Part shown: positions 26,801 through 28,058 of the stretch, piece after piece
Layout of the letters: each line of letters starts with the position of its first letter
Position numbering within the stretch: position 1 is the stretch's first letter
DNA from: Dillenia suffruticosa
Lineage: Eukaryota; Streptophyta; Magnoliopsida; Dilleniales; Dilleniaceae
DNA length: 64,000 nucleotides
Reading direction: 5' to 3'
Assembly (NCBI GenBank): GCA_033439265.1
Contig: JAVTVX010000027.1
Location: 5,967,001-6,031,000 of the forward strand
Notes under the pieces: generated by a model
Told to the model about the DNA's origin: nothing
Seen by the model: only the letters and a program-made list of their open reading frames with translations
Database searches by the model: none
Made by a program: the position numbers and the translations under genes

Positions 26801-28058
26801 CAGTACTGAAGTTCGTTGTTTGGTTGATATTCCTGGCCAAAAGTTACCTTCCATAGCTAGGGGTGAGATGGCCAAGTATTTGAAGACTGTAGTTGCTCCC
26901 CAGGTATATATGATTAGAAGCACATGATGTTGCTTTCAGCATTCCATTTTGCAGTTACTTGCCACCTTCAACTTTCAAATGACAAAGTGATCTTAATGTC
27001 TGTTTCAGATTCCACCAGAGCTCCATGATGCTTTCATCAAAGCCATTGAGAAAGGAAACATAAGAACAATGCCCAACAGAAGTATGCCAGCAGCTCCACA
27101 TCCTACTCCTGGAGCTCTGTTAATGGGTGACGCCTTTAACATGCGCCATCCTTTAACTGGTGGAGGAATGACAGTGGCATTGTCCGATATTGTTGTCCTG
27201 CGTGATCTTCTTAAGCCATTGCGTGATCTGGATGATGCAGCTTCTCTCTGCAAATATCTTGAATCCTTTTACACGCTGCGCAAGGTAGGCCATCTTCAAT
27301 TAAGATACGATGTTCTTAACAAGGGGTATTAGACTTGCCTCGAAGTGCATTTGTTATTCTTGTTATTCTCTTTTTGGAAGTGGAATTGATCTTTGATTCT
27401 TTGAAATTCATATGATTTGCATATTCATTTATGTTTTTGGATCTCTGGACTTGCAGCCAGTGGCATCCACAATCAACCCTATGGCTCTTGTTATTCTCTT
27501 TTTGGAAGTGGAATTGATCTTTGATTCTTTGAAATTCATATGATTTGTATATTCATTTATGTTTTTGGATCTCTGGACTTGCAGCCAGTGGCATCCACAA
27601 TCAACACTTTGGCTGGTGCCCTCTACAAGGTCTTTTGTGCTTCCCCTGATCAAGCAAGGAACGAAATGCGCCAAGCATGTTTTGATTACCTAAGCCTTGG
27701 AGGTGTTTGTTCAGCAGGACCAGTGGCTTTACTCTCTGGTTTAAACCCTCGACCCCTCAGCTTAGTTGTTCACTTTTTTGCTGTTGCGGTATATGGAGTT
27801 GGTCGATTGTTGCTTCCTTTCCCGTCACCTAAACGGTTATGGATGGGAGCTAGATTAATTTCTGTAAGTATCTTACAGTCTGCAGCTATAGAACACCCCC
27901 CCTAAAATCTTCATTTTGTCATAATTTTCTAATTGATTACTTTAATTTTTAAGGGTGCATCCGGAATCATTTTCCCCATCATAAAGGCAGAAGGAGTAAG
28001 GCAAATGTTCTTCCCTGCAACTGTGCCAGCATATTATAGAGCTCCTTCTGTAAAATAA
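23864..28058 (+). CDS. SQE: Squalene epoxidase (squalene monooxygenase), 8 exons, 525 aa
   Basis: Exons: 23864-24106, 25510-25621, 25796-25970, 26318-26486, 26685-26903, 27009-27284, 27585-27863, 27954-28058. All are GT-AG and in phase, total 1,578 nt. The enzyme converts squalene to 2,3-oxidosqualene using FAD, O2 and NADPH, the entry step to sterols and triterpenes, at the ER. The N-terminal ~27 residues form a hydrophobic anchor. GAGVVG (67-72) is the FAD Rossmann loop, with an acidic end of strand 2 at Glu90. DG lies at 219-220 and the GD motif in [11 protein letters not shown] at 346-347. The C-terminal third has hydrophobic helices. Length equals the plant norm (about 515-530). Exon 7 has two candidate acceptors; only the one at 27,585 keeps the frame. 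Intact by sequence. Confidence 0.95.
25216..25252 (-). repeat. SINE 3'-tail fragment in SQE intron 1
   Basis: TTTGGGATTAAGGCTCATTTTGTTGTTGT is the complement of the same tail seen at 63,222-63,262 (ACAACAACAA ... GAGCCTTAATCCCAA). It is one of three copies in the window. Confidence 0.65.
27359..27614 (+). repeat. 128-bp tandem duplication spanning the SQE exon 7 splice acceptor
   Basis: Copies 27,359-27,486 and 27,487-27,614 differ at only about three positions. Each contains the polypyrimidine region, a TTGCAG acceptor and the first 30 coding bases of exon 7. Splicing to the first acceptor (exon from 27,457) reads [10 protein letters not shown] and then intron sequence to an in-frame TGA at 27,541-27,543. 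The second acceptor continues into the conserved squalene epoxidase frame. High identity implies a recent event. Confidence 0.9.

Follow-up and report, generated by a model that had tools for sequence, protein, structure and literature searches.

Classical regulated poison splicing events, the kind usually discussed under AS-NMD, are conserved and have been shown in RNA. Judged by analogy, the closest precedent for the locus described here is a tandem duplication in potato: the excerpted text of PMC4974935 reports that the RdRp gene PGSC0003DMG402000361 gained an intron when a tandem duplication spanned one of its intron-exon boundaries. For Drosophila, NMD has been described as concealing newly gained introns (PMC2809761, excerpted text). 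We compare with these systems a 128-bp tandem duplication in a squalene epoxidase (SQE) gene, located in a stretch of 64,000 nucleotides (the window) on contig C27 of assembly G000 (596 Mb, 37 contigs). The literature matches listed contained no description of this SQE duplication.

The gene occupies positions 23864 to 28058 of the window on the forward strand and comprises eight coding exons (23864–24106, 25510–25621, 25796–25970, 26318–26486, 26685–26903, 27009–27284, 27585–27863, and 27954–28058), which were joined by script at GT-AG boundaries to give an open frame of 525 aa. The deduced protein matches the full Pfam profile SE (PF08491) with an E value of 2.3e-122, which agrees with the identification as squalene epoxidase made in the earlier note, and also matches FAD_binding_3 (PF01494, E value 1.5e-15). 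Its residues 57–504, including those encoded by the 279-nt exon 7 in the enzyme reading frame, align with the human squalene monooxygenase of PDB entry 6c6n (E value 1.6e-121). By its domains and its full-length frame, the C27 gene is a complete plant squalene epoxidase (squalene monooxygenase) and a predicted enzyme, and all of its exons are still open. Spliced to the acceptor of the enzyme frame, intron 6 (27285–27584) measures 300 nt.

Two repeat finders returned the same tandem pair at the 3' end of this intron, confirming the 128-bp tandem duplication proposed earlier. Copy 1 (27358–27485, forward strand) combines 99 nt from the end of intron 6 with 29 nt from the start of exon 7, and copy 2 (27486–27613) continues into the intact exon 7. 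The copies are arranged head-to-tail, each 128 nt long, with 98% ungapped identity according to one repeat finder; TRF reported a period of 128, 2.0 copies, 97% matches, 0% indels, and a score of 493. A 128-bp tandem pair at such identity is no chance match. Since positions 27358, 27486, and 27614 are all T, the repeat register may slide by one base, and the interval 27359–27614 given in the earlier note is the equivalent of 27358–27613; the "about three differences" it counted are exactly three mismatches, namely 27420 C / 27548 T, 27478 C / 27606 A, and 27481 A / 27609 T. Each copy includes a complete 3' splice site with AG acceptor and exon start, i.e., the duplication extends across the intron-exon boundary. 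The exon 7 remnant of copy 1 (27457–27485, forward strand), which follows the upstream acceptor, holds both exonic mismatches (27478 and 27481). Two of the three mismatches thus fall among the final 8 nt of copy 1 (P about 0.01, rising to 0.04 if both ends are considered, in a test picked after the data were seen), a clustering near the junction that may be due to error-prone repair or to loose constraint. That the two changes near the junction were copied from a template was considered and rejected; the window has just one other instance of the octamer CCCTATGG, on the opposite strand near 24750, and a match this short carries no meaning. At the left edge of the duplication, positions 27351–27368 form a 9-nt tandem, TTGTTATTC TTGTTATTC. 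The SQE gene on contig C12 reads TTGTTGTTC TTGTTATTC at this place, indicating that the 9-nt tandem is older than the 128-bp event, and it may mark a slippery spot.

Splicing by script from the donor after 27284 to the acceptors before 27457 and 27585 confirmed the two reading frames predicted from the sequence before. Acceptor 27585 yields the 525-aa enzyme frame, and acceptor 27457 leads through 28 codons to a TGA at 27541–27543 (forward strand), with loss of the last 127 of the 525 residues. Stop codons located more than about 50–55 nt upstream of the last exon junction generally trigger NMD. The TGA lies 320 nt 5' of the end of exon 7, well beyond the last-junction distance for AS-NMD, as the earlier note had implied in expecting degradation of such transcripts; the predicted upstream-acceptor transcript has an NMD-prone layout. 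The two acceptors, claimed to be equivalent, are in fact identical from -36 to +21, the nearest mismatches being located 37 nt before the exon and at +22, and both have a PWM score of 10.1, compared to a mean of 6.8 (range 0.5–11.7) for authentic acceptors. For the nine other AGs listed from 27285 to 27588, the score does not exceed 3.5. The PWM was built from 34 introns of five SQE genes of the assembly, with intron 6 left out when scored; being small and derived from one gene family, it provides a rough ranking of sites. Given the identity from -36 to +21, local sequence cannot choose between 27457 and 27585. Splice-site hexamers such as those treated in the excerpted text of PMC12480690 are uninformative here for the same reason. 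The intron closed by the upstream acceptor (27285–27456) is 172 nt long, the same length as intron 6 of the C12 gene, and the segment 3' of the exon remnant of copy 1 is U-rich and intron-like, with 71% AT.

SQE-like exons are found on six other contigs of the assembly. The DNA matches listed are located on C12 (89%), C20 (74%), C17 (75%), and C8 (82%, over 55 bases); a protein search of the assembly added C21 and a single weak fragment on C35. On C8 (L009) and at 11863–11871 kb of C21, the latter judged from search matches, SQE-like exons occur in tandem clusters, and the second C8 copy has stops in the aligned stretches and appears decayed. The C12 gene sits in a block that is collinear with the window. 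Since, moreover, its Ks to the C27 gene (0.193, exons 2–8) is similar to that of the C20–C17 pair (0.159), we take C27 and C12 to be partners, probably from one whole-genome duplication. Two side observations concern this block. The 21 kb from 29026 to 50162 of the window share only two short matches (at least 150 nt, E 1e-20) with the collinear block on C12, whose corresponding interval spans about 9.5 kb; the difference reflects gene loss or insertion since the split. Exon 8 of the C12 gene (L006, near 5395–5430) has a frame about ten residues longer than that of C27, which ends after APSVK.

Intron 6 of the C12 gene comprises 172 nt, exactly 300 minus 128, and contains the segment once. The duplication is thus absent from the closest related gene in the same assembly, which places its origin on the C27 side after the partners had separated. 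The 29 exonic nucleotides of copy 2 are the same as in C12, and copy 1 has two changes in these 29 nt; because C12, C20, and C17 share the base of copy 2 at both exonic sites, the two changes in copy 1 are derived. At the protein level, C12, C20, C17, the first C8 copy, and copy 2 have NTLA, copy 1 has NPMA, and the decayed second C8 copy has NDILA at the mismatched codons. As to the third mismatch (27420/27548), the printed alignment gives T for C12, like copy 2. C12 also holds the ATTTGCATATTCAT of copy 1 (14-base context) about seven bases off register, so the ancestral base at this position is ambiguous.

The divergence of the copies, 3/128 or 0.023 (Poisson 0.005–0.068), amounts to 0.12 (Poisson 0.03–0.35) of the C27–C12 Ks; for the intronic part, it is 1/99, corresponding to 0.05 (0.00–0.29) of the Ks. 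Measured by sequence divergence, the duplication is young relative to the C27–C12 split. In the sense that it is younger than the separation from C12, which has one copy, the earlier attribute "recent" is appropriate; its suggestion of an allele-specific change is a separate matter, as a divergence of 3/128 is equally compatible with a fixed and with a segregating change. The junction-near mismatches may have arisen with the event itself, in which case the duplication would be younger still. A Ka/Ks of 0.13 between C27 and C12 (exons 2–8) indicates that both genes were kept under constraint through most of their history. At sites where C20 and C17 agree, the C27 gene has 15 private amino-acid changes and the C12 gene has 5 (exons 2–8, p = 0.041), hinting at weaker constraint on C27, with which this excess is consistent but of which it is no proof. 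The faster amino-acid rate of C27 is probably older than the 128-bp duplication.

We propose that a single 128-bp tandem duplication, with a single-base microhomology at the edges, occurred in one of the two SQE partners and copied the end of intron 6 together with the first 29 nt of exon 7. Both acceptors, each equipped with a copy of the branch-point and pyrimidine region, would be recognised; the spliceosome would reach the acceptor of the 172-nt intron first and the second, equal acceptor 128 nt further on. Since acceptor 27457 closes an intron of unchanged length, it would be taken in a sizeable share of the transcripts, perhaps in most. These transcripts would carry a 128-nt extension with the stop at 27541 and either be subject to NMD or code for a protein without the last 127 residues, and the remaining ones, spliced to 27585, would code for the normal enzyme. 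The C27 gene would then be a partial loss-of-function form, which might be tolerated because other SQE loci remain. We lean towards this mixed use, in which productive mRNA of the C27 gene is accompanied by a sizeable unproductive (poison) fraction, as the probable state of the locus. The match of its intron to the partner length suggests that the upstream acceptor may be more than a minor leak and quite possibly the preferred site. A database survey found a preference for upstream 3' splice sites among alternative ones that was strong in intron-defined (short/short) events and significantly reduced under exon definition (PMC9225289, excerpted text; the organisms surveyed may not be plants). 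According to a rice paper, the early reports on plants lean to intron definition (PMC2327258, excerpted text). Together, these reports would suggest substantial use of 27457 and, consequently, formation of NMD targets.

Several observations argue against this reading: if the intact 279-nt exon 7 is recognised by exon definition, 27585 would be favoured, the sequence following the exon remnant of copy 1 is U-rich and intron-like, and the open exons and the Ka/Ks of 0.13 versus C12 speak against a crippled gene. Possibly, then, only 27585 is used and copy 1 is simply intron, in which case intron 6 was lengthened from 172 to 300 nt and the enzyme is unaffected. Two changes in the 29-nt remnant of copy 1, as opposed to the identity of copy 2 with C12, are what would be expected if only copy 2 codes; the AT content of 71% past the remnant and the intact coding frame point in the same direction. 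This possibility nevertheless appears unlikely in view of an upstream acceptor that is identical from -36 to +21, has an equal score, and closes an intron of partner length. Hiding of the upstream acceptor in RNA structure was also considered and rejected, because the single-strand RNA fold at this site is weaker than that of dinucleotide shuffles (z +2.18) and forms no strong hiding structure. A very improbable outcome would be use of 27457 together with a donor within the insert, so that 27490–27584 or 27508–27584 is removed as a new intron and the protein gains 11 or 17 in-frame residues. The 33-nt and 51-nt extra exons are indeed both in frame and stop-free, and the comparable duplication in potato gave rise to such an intron, supported by 106 junction reads (PMC4974935, excerpted text). 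The donors, however, are poor: CTT/GTTATT, which would start the possible 95-nt mini-intron 27490–27584 (forward strand) behind a 33-nt exon (27457–27489), scores -5.0, and GAA/GTGGAA at 27508 scores -0.9, whereas all 34 authentic SQE donors score higher, the lowest at 0.0. The GT at 27460 is just within the authentic range with a score of 1.2, but the exon would be 3 nt long. By the PWM, trained on the small set of 34 SQE donors of five genes, the duplicated region contains no usable new donor; the mini-intron was therefore discarded as a likely outcome. Nor is any of the GTs listed in the insert like the GTAAG donor used in potato, as given in the excerpted text of PMC4974935.

Mutations of this kind are not unusual in this genomic region. 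TRF, run on the window and on 20 further 10-kb stretches of its contig (264,000 bases; longest period 500, minimum score 100), reported four arrays with a period of at least 40 and at least 90% matches, including the SQE pair. As small young tandem duplications are this frequent, some must be expected to fall on splice sites. One of the other three arrays (L012) fails at its stated period, with 56 of 270 positions mismatched in an ungapped comparison; all of these are located beyond offset 193, suggesting an offset or an indel in this array. Another young tandem duplication, at 3336–3590 of L020, also has a 128-bp period (96%), and its start sequence differs from that of the SQE pair. The three other tandem pairs, of 94–99% in the 200 kb sampled by TRF, may be real or made by assembly, and at the SQE locus, too, the assembler could have joined two versions of the same stretch, haplotypic or erroneous, in tandem; the potato study checked reads for this very reason (PMC4974935, excerpted text). 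We regard such an artefact as improbable. A haplotype origin would require an NPMA allele, which is unlikely to be a working allele as NTLA is kept by the four open paralogues compared, and the five matches listed include no further contig with about 100% identity to the locus.

Elsewhere in the window, a Pfam scan of nine other frames gave matches in two retroelement-like frames only. These fragments, at 42030–45007 on the minus strand, match Pol_BBD above and RVT_2 below the cut-off, and we take them to belong to a Copia-type retroelement. Positions 40052–40816 contain an AT-rich array of about 264-bp units with TTAGCGACGGATT motifs, 80–84% alike.

Sterol or triterpene supply is probably little affected, since other SQE loci exist. 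The interest of the locus lies in the comparison of 27457 and 27585, which offer identical signals and differ essentially in position alone, with the single-copy C12 gene as an internal control in the same genome. The system bears on how plant splicing chooses between the site nearer the donor and the site at the change from intron to exon composition, and on how a duplicate enzyme gene begins to decay or diverge. It is doubtful that the duplicated acceptor is a newly formed splicing switch, in which the ratio of 27457 to 27585 sets SQE output by tissue or stress. If it were, one member of a recent duplicate pair would be controlled by splicing and its partner would not, and the locus would represent a datable natural experiment with two acceptors of identical signals, only position differing.

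Among the known systems, AS-NMD by poison extension resembles the SQE locus in that acceptors compete and splicing to the upstream one introduces a stop 320 nt before the last junction. The SQE event differs from the classical ones in being young, absent from the partner gene, and known here from sequence alone. The likeness to the potato RdRp gene is closer. Both are plant genes in which the end of an intron was duplicated together with the beginning of the exon that follows; as far as the excerpted text of PMC4974935 goes, branch site, pyrimidine tract, AG, and exon start were copied in both, and the duplication is missing from relatives in the potato case and from the partner gene in the SQE case. 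According to the same text, the potato copies have 10 differences, compared to 3 in SQE, and the new potato intron is spliced, with a GTAAG donor and 106 RNA-seq reads, whereas the SQE insert is without a good donor; unlike the intron gained in potato, the outcome to be expected in SQE is a competing acceptor with a premature stop. The SQE duplication is not a demonstrated intron gain. For the Drosophila cases, the idea in the excerpted text of PMC2809761 is that a new, imperfectly spliced insertion is sheltered from selection because its stop codon directs the transcripts to NMD, much as might apply here; those new introns have weak sites, whereas in SQE the sites are duplicates of each other and strong, and the event does not amount to an established new intron. 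We therefore place the SQE event as a further case of a known mutation type, in which the single-copy partner strengthens the earlier, still only plausible, interpretation of the upstream site as a poison acceptor.
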